From Candidatus Nomurabacteria bacterium (GTDB lineage: Bacteria > Patescibacteriota > Minisyncoccia > Phycocordibacterales > UBA9973), in contig JAHFNO010000018.1 of assembly GCA_023267275.1 (NCBI GenBank), forward strand, positions 1-32,571: a stretch of 32,571 bases of DNA. Direction: 5' to 3'. How positions within the stretch are numbered: the stretch's first letter is position 1; each line of letters opens with the position of its first letter. Positions 2 through 28,782 of this stretch are shown here, in pieces. The translations under genes were made by a program, and so were the position numbers. Under the pieces are notes generated by a model. That model had not been told where the DNA came from. It did not search any database and saw only the letters and a list, made by a program, of their open reading frames with translations.

Positions 2-57
2 TCCTGTGGCTTGTTCATTCCATCATCGTATCATGACGAGGTGAACAAGATACAGGA
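2..57. repeat. Long imperfect inverted repeat at window edge
   Basis: Arms 2-17 and 42-57 match at 14 of 16 positions (TCCTGTggCTTGTTCA against its partner). A second hairpin follows at 71-88 (CGCGACC-TTAC-GGTCGCG, perfect 7-bp stem). The left arm resembles the GTTCTTGTG-type low-complexity tracts found after several genes in this window (5097-5133, 16380-16460, 23960-24000). Function unknown. Confidence 0.5.
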
Positions 58-23999: not shown

Positions 24000-25076
24000 T
24001 TACAGTCCGTAACTTGGATTGTTGTGGAAAGGATTTTCTGCACCGTTTACTTCAAAGTGTAAGTGAGATCCTGTAGCACGACCTGTTTTTCCGACAAGAC
24101 CAATCACTTGCCCGCGAGCAACGGTGTCTCCAACATTCACTGAAACTTTTGACATGTGTGCGTACACAGTCTGAATTGTATGACCACCGACATTGTGGTT
24201 GATTACCACAAACTCTCCGTAGCCGGTATTGTAACCAGTGCGTTGCGCAACAATAACTGTTCCACCGGCAGCTGCCATAATTGGCGTGCCGACTGGAGCT
24301 GCAAGGTCGATACCTGTGTGACGAGCTCCGTGCAAATCTTGTGTCATGCGACCGGTAGCAACCGGACGAAGCCAGAAGTTTTCAAGATCCATATCTCCTC
24401 GAGTAAATACTGGAATACGAATACTGCCACCCTTTGTTCCTGAACCCTGTCCGGTTGTAGGTTTTGTTGTTGGCTTTTCTGTAGTGTCAGGAATAATGAG
24501 CGTATCACCAATTGTCAGATCATCATCAGGAGAAAGATCGTTTGTATATGCAATATCACCCACATCTACTTTAAATTTCTTAGCGAGTGACTGAATTGTT
24601 TCACCCTTTGCCACAGTGTGCATAAAACCAGAAATAGGGAGGATTGTAAGAACAGTACCTTCTTTTAAGGTAGTTGTACCGGCGGGGATGTCATTAAACG
24701 CACTAATAGTTGAACGAGTCACGCCGAACATTTTTGCCACAGAGGCAAGTGTATCGCCTTTGTGCACCACGTATACGGAAATTTGGTTTGAAGCATCCGG
24801 AGATGTGTCATCGATAGCGCTTTCGTTTCCTACAAGTCCAATACTTGGAGCAAGCGCGGCATCGTTTATATTTACATCACTTACAGATTTACTTGAACCA
24901 GAAAGAGAGTCTGGACCGATAGTAGCCATTGCAAGTGGCATGTTCTGTGAATTTGCAGAAAGAGGAGCACTTTGAATCGAAGGAGTGGAGTCGGCTTGAG
25001 CAGAACGGGTAAAAACAGAGAACACCGAGGCCGAAACCGAGAGAGGCAAGAGGGTTGTTCCCATCATGAGTGCCAT
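24000..25076 (-). CDS. Exported LysM-M23 peptidoglycan endopeptidase
   Basis: 358 aa from the ATG at 25076. Two LysM modules (about 102-146, YVVHKGDTLASVAKMFGV; about 151-196, HTVAKGETIQSLAKKFKV) bind peptidoglycan. A linker rich in Thr/Pro/Gly leads to an M23 lysostaphin-type domain with the Zn set H253/D257 (HTGIDLAAP), H307 (VYAHM) and H338/H340 (GSHLHFE). It cuts peptide cross-links in the wall during growth or division. The annotated N-terminus is hydrophobic (MALMMGTTLLPLSVSASVF) but lacks basic residues; the frame stays open 49 codons upstream with a basic stretch right before it, so a non-ATG start is likely. Confidence 0.92.
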   Translation of the reverse strand: MALMMGTTLLPLSVSASVFSVFTRSAQADSTPSIQSAPLSANSQNMPLAMATIGPDSLSGSSKSVSDVNINDAALAPSIGLVGNESAIDDTSPDASNQISVYVVHKGDTLASVAKMFGVTRSTISAFNDIPAGTTTLKEGTVLTILPISGFMHTVAKGETIQSLAKKFKVDVGDIAYTNDLSPDDDLTIGDTLIIPDTTEKPTTKPTTGQGSGTKGGSIRIPVFTRGDMDLENFWLRPVATGRMTQDLHGARHTGIDLAAPVGTPIMAAAGGTVIVAQRTGYNTGYGEFVVINHNVGGHTIQTVYAHMSKVSVNVGDTVARGQVIGLVGKTGRATGSHLHFEVNGAENPFHNNPSYGL

Positions 25077-25223
25077 AGCAAAAAATGACCATTTTTGAGG
25101 TTTTGACGAGAAACTATGTCCTTTCGCGTGTAAAATCCTTGTTTTACAAGGCGAAAATCTTGTATGAGTGGGTTTAATAAGCCTAAAATGGGTGACCCGA
25201 GAGTAAGAGTGCCAAAATAATCT
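25077..25223 (-). other. Likely N-terminal extension of the M23 gene without a standard start codon
   Basis: In frame with the M23 gene there are 49 open codons between its ATG and a TAA at 25224-25226, with no ATG, GTG or TTG. The last 20 (HAKGHSFSSKPQKWSFFA) give the basic n-region that a signal peptide needs, running straight into the hydrophobic segment. ATT codons at 25134-25136 and 25176-25178 are candidate starts. A CCTTGT-TTT-ACAAGG hairpin (25137-25151) lies beside the first. Confidence 0.4.
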
Positions 25224-25297
25224 TTACTGTTAGGGTCGTTACTGTCGTACGGGAGGTCTAAACAACTGTTTAAACATATAGCCTTTCGGGAAATAGA

Positions 25298-25434: not shown

Positions 25435-28400
25435 ATGCGAGAAAAACTCTCAAAAGAGACAAAACAACAAGTGCAAGCGATTGAGCAAATCGAGTATTAT
25501 GCCAAACGCCGAGAACAATCAGAGCTCGCTCGTGGAGCCACCGGTAATGATGTAGCAGATTCGATGATTGCTTCATACGAAGCCGAGATGCGAAAAATTG
25601 CCGACAAAAATGGTCTTGATTTGGAAAAAGTTTTGACTGGACTAGAAAACAAAGATACTGTCAAAAAGCACGGGAGTAGCGAACAGGCCAAAAAGGAGGC
25701 ACTGTCCGAGCTCAAAAAGCTTGAAACAAAATACGGTAAAACCAAAGCCGTACTCTATAGTTCGTACGACTATCATCACCAAGCCTTGATGCAGGGGATT
25801 CTTGATACGATTCAGGAAGAAGTAAAAGGTATCACCAAAGAACAGGGAATTACTGATCCCGAGCTATTTAAAAAATTTGATTTGCCAGACCCAGAAAAAG
25901 TAAAAGAGGGACATGCGAAACTCGACCAACTCGAAATTGAAAAAAAGAACCTGGAAATAGACGCTATCAAAAAGAGTCTTGAAAAAAGCCCCGAATCTCT
26001 GCTTGGACTCGTTCGCTTACGAGAGGAGGCAGAAAAAATAATCAAGGAATACAAACTCAATCCATCACATTTGAGTCGTTTTGCCGTGCCAGAAATTCCC
26101 GAAGAAAAAGTAGAGGTAATCGAAGAAAAAATCTCAGCACAAAAAGAAGAGCCAGAAAATCTTGATTACAAAAATGGAAAGAAAGTGAGTTGGTTTAAAC
26201 TCATGCTCGGCTTGGAAGACAAGGAGGAAAAAGATAAAAAACGATATGAAGCAGAACGCAAGCAGGTGCTTGAGGCAATCAAGCGTGCCGATCAAAAAAT
26301 AAATGAATTGCGCGACCACATGCCAAAAGACCCTTCTTCTCCGTTTGCAAAAGATCTGGCAAAAAACATCGAGAAACTTGAGCAAAGTAAAATTGAAGCC
26401 AACATGCGACTCAAGCCAGAAGATCGTAATCCTTCACTCATTGTTTCAGGAATAGAAAAAAATACACCCCCTCTCAATCTCCCCCTGAATACAGAGGGAG
26501 AAGTAATTCCAGAATCAAACTGGGAAAAACTAAAACGTGTTGGAAGAAAATTGTTTACCGGAGCACTGTTTACGGCAAGCACTCTCTCGCCAAAATCAAC
26601 AACTGATTCACATCTTCCTCCACAAGAAGGGAAGCGAGTTGTATATGAAAATACCGTACAACAAAAAACACCTGAACAAAAAAATGAAAGAACAATCGAA
26701 TACAAAACGCCAGATACAAAATCTGAAATACAAAAAATACAGCCCGAGACTCCAATCAAAAAAGAAGTAACCCCAACAACAGAAGTTCGACAAAAAATTG
26801 AAATTGGCAAAATTACTCCTGCAACCTTGCATGAAATAGAAACTCCAGTAATGGCAGAGATGATCAATCAAATACAGCTTGATACTGCAGGCACTATTGA
26901 TACGACTGTCGCTCAAACACCAAAATCCGATACAGCAGAAACGGTTGTATTTGCACCGGTCAAACAATCGGTTGAAAAAATTACACCGGCTGGGTTAAAA
27001 ACAATAGAGATTGAATCACAAAAACCACAAACCCTGAAAGAGCTCATTCAAAAAATTGACTCCGCAGAAAAACACGCACCGCAAGTAAAAAAATTGAAAC
27101 AGAAAATCAATATTGAAAAAATAAATCCTATTGAAATTAAACAAACGATTAAAGAGAATCTCCCTCCAGTTGCAAAAGAAGCAATTGTACCTGAAATACA
27201 TATTCCAGAGAATGTTGTAAGAAAAGATGCGATTGAAAAAATTACACCGACTGGGTTAAAAACAATAGAGATTAAATCAACAACACCAGAAACATTGAAA
27301 GAATTGGTGCAAAAAATTGATTTAGAAGAAAAACATCGGGTTGATATCAAAAAAATTACACCGGCACCACTTATTACTCAAGAAAATACAATTTCATCAG
27401 AGGCTCCAAAAGTAAGAAAAATTATTGAGGATCAAAAACCAGCAATCAAGGCTACAGATATTATTTCCCAATACGAAGAAGGTGCAGATACAATAAAATA
27501 CGAAGAACCAAAAACGGGTACTCCTGGAATTAAGATCGGATACCTCGATGAGAAAGGAAACAAACTTGATACAAATGCTATTCAAAGAACCCGAACTGTT
27601 TTACCTTCATCTCGAGAAGAAATACCAATGATTGCACCAACAAAAATGGATACTGTGAGAGTGCCTACCGTAACCATTCGACCGGCAACCGAAACAAGTG
27701 TTATACGAACAGAAAATGAAAACGGTGTACTAGAAAATACAATTATCACTCCAGGCCCAATCGGTCTTGCAATATCCCCGGAAATCACCAGAGATACACC
27801 GTCGGCAAGGATTGATACACTCGAATCTACAGAACCTCGTATTCTTGAAATACGAAACCGGCAATTAAACAGTGCTGGCGGAGTGAAGTGGGACTGGAAT
27901 ATTATGGAATCATCTTCAGGCTATGAATTAGACCCTATTGAAACTCCAACCGCCAGTCAATTGCAAGGAACAGAATTTCAAATAATTGACCCCGAAATAA
28001 TTCGTGCTGAAGGTGGGTATATCATTCCGCATTTTTTGTGGGAACGAATGGATCCGGCTATTTGGCATGCACTCCAAGAAAATCCTGGGGCACTTGAAAT
28101 CTATCTGACAAACAGTAAGAACCAAGGAACCCATGATCCTTATACAATCCAGGTTTGGAACGGCGACACAGGCATGGAATACCTCATTTCTTCAAACAAC
28201 ATGCTTATAAAAATGGAGTCACGATCTCGCTCAAACGAGGCATTGTTCGGCCGATTTATGACAGCAGTGGAAGAATCAGTAAACGGGTACAAACTTTCTA
28301 TCAACAACATTGATATTAATAAATATGAAAGATTGAGCGAAGCACAAAAAACATTACTTGCAAAAGCTTGTTTAAAAAATGACAAAAAAACATTTGTTAC

Positions 28401-28782
28401 TTATTCAATAGACAGTAGAACGCTTGCGGACGGATCAATAAAAAAATTCAACATGAGAACTGCTGAAATGGAAACCGCTCAACCAGAAGAAATAAAAAGA
28501 GAAATACAAGACATGATTGATTTTGTTCGAACAAATGACCGGGTTACTGAAAAACTGCTTATTGTCGGAAAAAATAACAAAGAACAAGGCTGGAAAAGAA
28601 TGTACTCAAAACGTCCAACTGGTCAGATAAAAGAAATACATACGCAAGAGAAAAGGATAGAAAAGAAAAAGACATTTATTCGCAAAATATTAAAAAAAGC
28701 GAATCGTCCAAAAACAAAAAAGAATAAACAAAAAAGAGAAAGTGCTGAAACCCTTCAATATACTGATTATTCAACACAATAA
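25435..28782 (+). CDS. Very long Lys/Glu-rich coiled-coil repeat protein
   Basis: 1115 aa, family not recognised. Residues 1-340 are strongly helical and charged with probable coiled coils. A low-complexity block (about 340-355, TPPLNLPLNTEGE) looks like a translated palindromic element. The middle (about 400-780) is Thr/Pro/Lys-rich and carries a repeated K-I-[TN]-P motif at about 457, 513, 560, 600 and 638. Two 35-codon copies (26971-27075, 27232-27336) are nearly identical in DNA. The end (about 860-1080) looks globular (EIYLTNSKNQGTHDPYTIQV, NGYKLSINNIDINKYERL), followed by a very basic tail. No clear signal peptide or membrane helix. Probably a structural or scaffold protein, first of a right-hand cluster of similar style. 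Confidence 0.75.
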   Translation: MREKLSKETKQQVQAIEQIEYYAKRREQSELARGATGNDVADSMIASYEAEMRKIADKNGLDLEKVLTGLENKDTVKKHGSSEQAKKEALSELKKLETKYGKTKAVLYSSYDYHHQALMQGILDTIQEEVKGITKEQGITDPELFKKFDLPDPEKVKEGHAKLDQLEIEKKNLEIDAIKKSLEKSPESLLGLVRLREEAEKIIKEYKLNPSHLSRFAVPEIPEEKVEVIEEKISAQKEEPENLDYKNGKKVSWFKLMLGLEDKEEKDKKRYEAERKQVLEAIKRADQKINELRDHMPKDPSSPFAKDLAKNIEKLEQSKIEANMRLKPEDRNPSLIVSGIEKNTPPLNLPLNTEGEVIPESNWEKLKRVGRKLFTGALFTASTLSPKSTTDSHLPPQEGKRVVYENTVQQKTPEQKNERTIEYKTPDTKSEIQKIQPETPIKKEVTPTTEVRQKIEIGKITPATLHEIETPVMAEMINQIQLDTAGTIDTTVAQTPKSDTAETVVFAPVKQSVEKITPAGLKTIEIESQKPQTLKELIQKIDSAEKHAPQVKKLKQKINIEKINPIEIKQTIKENLPPVAKEAIVPEIHIPENVVRKDAIEKITPTGLKTIEIKSTTPETLKELVQKIDLEEKHRVDIKKITPAPLITQENTISSEAPKVRKIIEDQKPAIKATDIISQYEEGADTIKYEEPKTGTPGIKIGYLDEKGNKLDTNAIQRTRTVLPSSREEIPMIAPTKMDTVRVPTVTIRPATETSVIRTENENGVLENTIITPGPIGLAISPEITRDTPSARIDTLESTEPRILEIRNRQLNSAGGVKWDWNIMESSSGYELDPIETPTASQLQGTEFQIIDPEIIRAEGGYIIPHFLWERMDPAIWHALQENPGALEIYLTNSKNQGTHDPYTIQVWNGDTGMEYLISSNNMLIKMESRSRSNEALFGRFMTAVEESVNGYKLSINNIDINKYERLSEAQKTLLAKACLKNDKKTFVTYSIDSRTLADGSIKKFNMRTAEMETAQPEEIKREIQDMIDFVRTNDRVTEKLLIVGKNNKEQGWKRMYSKRPTGQIKEIHTQEKRIEKKKTFIRKILKKANRPKTKKNKQKRESAETLQYTDYSTQ
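26478..26501. repeat. Palindromic element translated within the 1115-aa gene
   Basis: TCTCCCCCTG (26478-26487) / CAGAGGGAGA (26492-26501), 9 of 10 pairs, preceded by CACCCCCTCTC. It gives the TPPLNLPLNTEGE segment, unlike the neighbouring Lys/Glu-rich sequence, and resembles the CCCCTCCTT element at 9896. Confidence 0.6.
26971..27336 (+). repeat. Tandem 35-codon repeats in the 1115-aa gene
   Basis: 26971-27075 and 27232-27336, 261 bp apart. The first 48 bp differ at only three positions (all G/A), so the duplication is recent. Weaker copies of the same I-x-K-I-T-P start lie at about 26803, 27112 and 27346. Confidence 0.85.

Follow-up and report, generated by a model that had tools for sequence, protein, structure and literature searches.

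In E. coli, pcnB starts at AUU and its product is kept scarce. According to a published report (PMC5472188), experimentally characterised bacterial genes with non-canonical starts are very few, and IF3 has been reported to repress the non-canonical starts of infC and of Streptomyces sigR. The same report covers 34 genomes, all of one genus, in which the sigR start is GTC in 32 and GTT in the other 2, behind a strong ribosome-binding site, AGGAGGTG (PMC5472188). In chloroplasts, U at position -1 favours initiation by extended anticodon-loop pairing, as set out in PMC4587860.

The window, that is, the whole 32,571-nucleotide stretch of DNA that was analysed, comes from a draft assembly of 33 contigs and carries on its minus strand a gene for a LysM-M23 peptidase whose translation very probably begins at AUU 25178. 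The gene is unrelated to pcnB but resembles it in its AUU start and in a product that may be scarce. Starts helped by U at -1 through an extended codon-anticodon interaction were reportedly described by Esposito et al. 2003, and the M23 start resembles them in that U stands directly before AUH (AUU, AUA or AUC) in 111/115 loci, the pairing being putative in these bacteria. The likeness to infC (PMC5472188) lies in an AUH start that departs from AUG in the third base, on a gene with regulated output; on the other hand, the gene here encodes a wall hydrolase and not IF3, and it lacks a Shine-Dalgarno sequence. With sigR, as described there (PMC5472188), it shares a non-canonical start outside infC that is kept in orthologues and misannotated, whereas the M23 start is AUU, AUA or AUC, spans 44 of the 46 families sampled in one order and lacks Shine-Dalgarno pairing, and IF3 control, shown for sigR, would hold for M23 by analogy. 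An AUH start of M23 appeared in no title or abstract among the matches listed for these bacteria and start codons, in a literature search whose scope left preprints and most subscription journals outside.

Results

The open frame and its product

The minus-strand frame of the peptidase runs from stop to stop over 25223..24003, and its first canonical codon (ATG, GTG or TTG), the 50th of the open frame, is ATG 25076..25074. A sequence-only reading of the window had counted 49 open codons without ATG, GTG or TTG upstream of this ATG, a count that is exactly right, and had described a basic stretch before the hydrophobic segment, where KGHSFSSKPQKW is indeed found. It had also named ATT codons as start candidates; the stretch holds two, 25178..25176 and 25136..25134, of which the first falls in the column that is conserved among relatives. 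The small hairpin that it had placed beside an ATT exists (CCTTG-TAAAA-CAAGG), but the ATT in question is the second, whose column is not conserved and which we do not take as the start, and not 25178. This hairpin was set aside as a candidate element, since its region is no more stably folded than shuffled sequence (z -0.6 and -0.7) and it is not conserved.

Read from the ATT at 25176..25178 (minus strand), which would be decoded as fMet, the precursor frame 24003..25178 comprises 392 codons; an in-frame TAA (25224..25226) closes the frame upstream, 15 codons separating it from the AUU. The precursor would consist of a basic n-region, a signal-peptide-like hydrophobic segment, two LysM stretches and an M23 peptidase domain, and its profile matches are those of a LysM-M23 protein (PF01551, 5e-30, 104 bits against a curated cut-off of 28.7; PF01476, 7.4e-20, 71.1 bits against 20.9). 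H283, D291, H341, H372 and H374 are invariant among 23 aligned sequences, and we take them to include the metal and catalytic residues of the domain. With AUU read as Met, the n-region (25089..25178) is 30 residues long and ends in ...SSKPQKW; all of it would be lost if the gene started at ATG 25074..25076, which lies within the hydrophobic segment. A divergent neighbour on the plus strand (25435..28782) encodes a protein of 1115 residues in which EKITPAGLKTIEI-like segments recur. In the M23 paralogue of the same genome (L002), ATG codons stand at the 5' end of the gene; this paralogue was excluded from the comparison of loci.

A conserved AUH column in orthologous loci

M23-type matches were present in 96/100 near genomes (E <= 0.001) and in 265/297 genomes across the order (E <= 1e-30). 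The 133 orthologous loci compared are the best or family-wide M23 matches among those listed and not a random draw, with family and genus labels transcribed by hand; among the named relatives that a protein alignment brought up are Kaiserbacteria, Nomurabacteria, Vogelbacteria and Zambryskibacteria, which we take to be Paceibacteria of the Patescibacteria. The stop-to-stop proteins of these loci were aligned blind to codons. The alignment column that contains Ile 25178 has ATT in 76, ATA in 27 and ATC in 12 rows, so that the comparison of orthologous N termini that the earlier reading had suggested gave AUH at one column in 115 of 130 rows, three further rows being gapped. The runner-up ATH column reached 29/120 and the best canonical column, in the same region of the alignment, 29/133, and the column immediately 3' of AUH is canonical in 12/130 rows. 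AUH is present in 44/46 sampled families and in 76/84 genera of the order, and its third base varies within genera; for example, the window's own genus has ATT in three loci, ATA in two and GTT in one (L027), the last with an ATG 8 codons upstream of the site as a usable canonical codon. The earlier suggestion of a rare start codon of the infC type is thus very probably correct, with AUU 25178 as that codon.

The other 15 rows carry GTA (5), GTT (2), TTA (2), CTC (2), TTT (2), CTT (1) and ATG (1), and part of them are offset by one or two codons, such as TCT ATT TTA GTA in L056 and L073 or CTT ATG in L036. ATG stands clearly at the site in 2/133 loci, L036 and L128, which belong to two different families and share CTT-ATG. 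A canonical codon directly follows AUH in 10 of the 115 AUH loci (ATG in L021, L029, L085 and L123), so a few loci may start there instead. In family f6, GTA and GTT occupy the column in L079 and L086; in L079 an in-frame stop directly precedes CTT GTA, and the start there may therefore be GUA.

Nucleotide context and reading frame at the site

Context and frame statistics were computed on the 115 AUH rows alone. The conserved context directly 5' of the start, TAGGCTT in the window (25179..25185, minus strand), shows T-1 at 97%, T-2 at 80%, C-3 at 66%, G-4 at 61%, G-5 at 66%, A-6 at 56% and T-7 at 72%, and GGCTT immediately precedes AUH in 56/115 loci. T-1 is found in 111/115 loci, against 34% at other leader ATH triplets and 41% at internal Ile codons, and the codon to which it belongs encodes Leu in 71, Phe in 18 and other residues in 26 (Thr, Tyr, Pro, Cys and others). 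Because T-1 is fixed while the preceding amino acid varies, the constraint acts on nucleotides and not on a peptide. A weight matrix built from the 115 sites was scanned over 250 nt, in all frames, of 40 held-out loci, which were further listed M23 matches from the order-wide search; its best site lay in the M23 frame in 29/40 (chance expectation 13.3), and in 27/40 it also fell inside the open stretch, 26 of these at ATH. The 13/40 held-out loci without an in-frame open site indicate that in some lineages the site is gone or has diverged too far for the matrix to recognise. A genome-wide habit of AUH starts was considered and rejected, as GGCTT-ATH within the first 60 codons of long ORFs in 352 kb of the genome occurs, apart from M23, once, inside a membrane-type protein.

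In-frame stops persist at background density up to about three codons before AUH. Frame-0 stops make up 62 of 805 codons at -10..-3, compared with 28 and 60 in the other frames; the gap from stop to AUH is at most 3 codons in 27/115 loci and at most 1 codon in 7/115, and there is no canonical codon between stop and AUH in 87/115, the lack of stops downstream of AUH being a product of construction and not counted as evidence. From AUH to the hydrophobic stretch there are on average 29 residues with a mean net charge of +4.2 (113 loci). The pN/pS ratio of this n-region is 0.71, compared with 0.88 in the upstream control and 0.34 in the body, and only three of 13 close groups look clearly coding by this measure (0.31, 0.36 and 0.39); the difference between 0.71 and 0.88 was judged too weak for proof of coding, and it suggests that the n-region is weakly constrained. 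A short peptide motif, approximately (start)-L-P--QDP(G/D)S, follows AUH in many relatives (e.g. L006, L009, L016, L017), and AK(N/K)PLF often stands just before the membrane segment in many relatives, with the rest of the n-region variable. Overall, support for the AUU start is about as strong as comparison of sequences can provide.

Upstream elements and other readings of the site

A promoter-like element, TTGACT-16..18-TATAAT (at least 10 of 12 matches), lies upstream in 67/130 loci, with 4.3 expected from shuffles, and most often ends near -93 relative to AUH. A DnaA-box-like TTATCCACA with at most one mismatch occurs 60-350 nt upstream in 85/130 loci (0.14 expected per stretch). A leader hairpin, [AU]GGCUYAACARAGCC[AU], is present at about -60 to -38 in 44/115 AUH loci; for these 44, picked by a GGC...GCC pattern, 85.6% of cells are paired and 6/9 pairs changed on both sides. 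A covariance model of the leader matched 71/148 genomes at E <= 0.05. Among its matches at E < 1e-3, 51/54 adjoin an M23 gene, many of these 51 having belonged to the model's own training set and Infernal's stricter filters having been used; one reads such a leader from the other strand, and the remaining two (G191 and G174) have no adjoining M23 ORF. With 51/54 matches at M23 genes, the idea of other genes sharing the leader was rejected. Membership in a known Rfam family was likewise dropped, the eight loci searched having given two matches, both far below gathering. The DnaA-box-like sites lie upstream of the M23 promoter in loci between L003 and L132, for example at -146 in L013, -145 in L061 and -208 in L120, and beyond them, in several loci inspected by eye, a divergent gene resembles a UvrD-type helicase and may encode one.

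These elements bear on the reading that survives best beside a start kept weak for its own sake, namely that AUH is the start but the conserved element is a binding site for a regulator (UAGGCUUAUUUUA, acting in mRNA or DNA), with the weak codon a by-product and nothing special about IF3. Conservation that extends out to -7 and, more weakly, to +8, the hairpin, and the promoter and DnaA-box-like site further upstream in many loci would all suit such a site. On the other hand, the leader model has no match in the window's own genome (G000), so its locus shares the start and not the hairpin, yet AUU is kept there; and a third base that moves between U, A and C within genera is near-cognate behaviour, whereas a binding site would rather fix the base. 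We therefore consider this reading unlikely. The window's locus also has no DnaA box within one mismatch.

Entry from a small upstream ORF, by frameshifting or by stop-coupled reinitiation at the conserved site, seems very improbable. A point in its favour is that TAGG often gives a TAG in another frame just before the site (stops at 47/345 codons of one other frame at -3..-1), but no ORF with a canonical start runs into the site in any frame in 35/115 loci, and no ATG-started one does in 83/115. A control site 90 nt upstream behaves similarly, with 27/115 loci lacking such an ORF; since the AUH site is not richer in incoming ORFs than the control, a conserved upstream ORF is not evident.

That the gene simply starts at ATG 25076, with the upstream frame open by chance, is scarcely credible, although this ATG, as the first canonical codon, is the one that a gene finder limited to ATG, GTG and TTG would pick. 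Long start-free runs are not rare in this genome: among 326 ORFs of at least 110 codons in 352 kb of it, a set that includes the M23 gene and is not all real genes, such runs reach at least 30 codons in 23 and at least 40 codons in 11. The 49-codon run is thus only mildly unusual taken alone, and relatives were needed to settle the question; it becomes compelling only once orthologues are added. Over the 133 loci, the run between the stop and the first canonical codon has a mean length of 24.8 codons, whereas a null sampled from upstream DNA gives 7.7, and it is at least 20 codons long in 77/133 loci against 9.2% in the null from the same DNA. Every canonical codon is absent up to the hydrophobic segment in 39/133 loci, so most single loci need the alignment to exclude a downstream start. 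In that alignment the ATG column is canonical in 9/129 loci, against 115/130 for AUH, the opposite of the pattern that the earlier reading had named as its refutation, in which orthologues would start at the downstream Met and lack conservation 5' of it; and a start at this ATG would leave the signal peptide without its basic n-region. As for a sequencing or assembly indel that removed the true start, which the earlier reading had raised and which a draft assembly might invite, its likelihood is negligible, because a like codon at a like place in 44/46 sampled families excludes it.

Discussion

Our results suggest that the conserved weak AUH start limits the amount of wall-cutting enzyme that is made. 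Translation from AUU 25178 would yield the 392-residue precursor with its 30-residue basic n-region, signal peptide, LysM repeats and M23 domain. The usual initiator tRNA, with anticodon CAU, would read the AUH codon despite a third-base mismatch, and the conserved U-1 and U-2 could extend the codon-anticodon helix to A37 and A38, a longer helix that would make the mismatch tolerable without Shine-Dalgarno pairing and leave the start possible but weak. Selection may then hold the codon at AUU, AUA or AUC, off AUG, so that the hydrolase stays scarce, with IF3 as the likeliest discriminating factor, as in infC. The throttle is suggested by the avoidance of AUG at the site (2/133 loci, and four with ATG directly after AUH). 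Taken jointly, the AUU start, mismatch reading by the initiator tRNA, help from U-1 and U-2 and selection for scarce hydrolase through IF3 form a reading that we hold to be likely. IF3 control of the M23 start is, by analogy, the likeliest form of discrimination, and tight control of a wall hydrolase by a rare start, as the sequence-only reading had proposed, fits this picture.

Several features of these genomes are relevant to such a mechanism. Shine-Dalgarno use is not apparent in the window's own genome: among 189 probable ATG genes, drawn from the window and from L322-L341 of the same genome, Shine-Dalgarno-like motifs precede 3%, against 5% in a control stretch, and T stands directly before ATG in 63%. 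Before AUH, such motifs at -16..-5 are depleted (2/115 loci against 19/115 in the control stretch), and a strong Shine-Dalgarno sequence like that reported for sigR was accordingly not found ahead of AUH. An IF3 gene, matched by PF05198, is present in the window's own genome and in 140/148 genomes of the order. A pattern search did not find the initiator tRNA or the 16S 3' end of the own genome; the tRNA-Met of a same-family genome (G018), the sole match to a strict pattern in 41 genomes, has the anticodon arm GGGCTCATAACCC, with which U-2 U-1 A U could pair through A38 A37 U36 A35.

The comparison extended to outgroups. Among nine class-level outgroup loci (L228-L232 and L313-L316), the membrane segment is preceded by no canonical codon in L230 and L313, the first canonical codon comes only at codon 31 in L228 and codon 57 in L231, and in the remaining five one occurs sooner in the open frame or well ahead of the membrane segment. 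Further out in the phylum (L233-L245), 13/13 loci show a canonical codon by codon 30 of the open frame. In L231 and L232, from other orders of the class, CGCAAGAGR-ATTTT is common to both ahead of the first ATG.

From an evolutionary point of view, a bolder reading is that an entire order of Patescibacteria, and possibly the rest of its class, uses the AUH start of this wall hydrolase as a dedicated throttle on translation without Shine-Dalgarno pairing, with the DnaA-box-like site, TTGACT-TATAAT promoter, hairpin and UAGGCUU-AUH forming one control unit in many families; we put this forward tentatively and consider it rather doubtful as a whole. If true, few non-canonical bacterial starts other than that of infC would be conserved as deeply as the M23 start, and wall cutting would be tied to replication through DnaA and to the fidelity of initiation through IF3. 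Retention of such a start across dozens of families would show that selection can act over the long term on start-codon weakness itself, and the M23 start would offer a clean system for start choice without Shine-Dalgarno pairing, with U-1 and U-2 in its place. In practical terms, gene finders limited to ATG, GTG and TTG would lose the n-region or call a wrong start for M23 in many of these genomes.

The infC gene itself was inspected, unaligned, in 31 loci of the same order (L135 and L276-L305, i.e. the own genome and the 30 best of 140 genomes). ATG, GTG or TTG, mostly TTG, stands near the expected start in 29/31 and none does in 2/31; infC was thus rejected as a companion AUU gene, no recurring AUU being evident among these loci. 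The two infC loci that lack ATG, GTG and TTG (L294 and L300) have CTG instead, which is likely to be the start, and some infC loci are nearly leaderless in appearance, with a TATAAT-like box just upstream. In genus g54 (L007 and L052), the gene immediately downstream of M23, in the same orientation, is infC.
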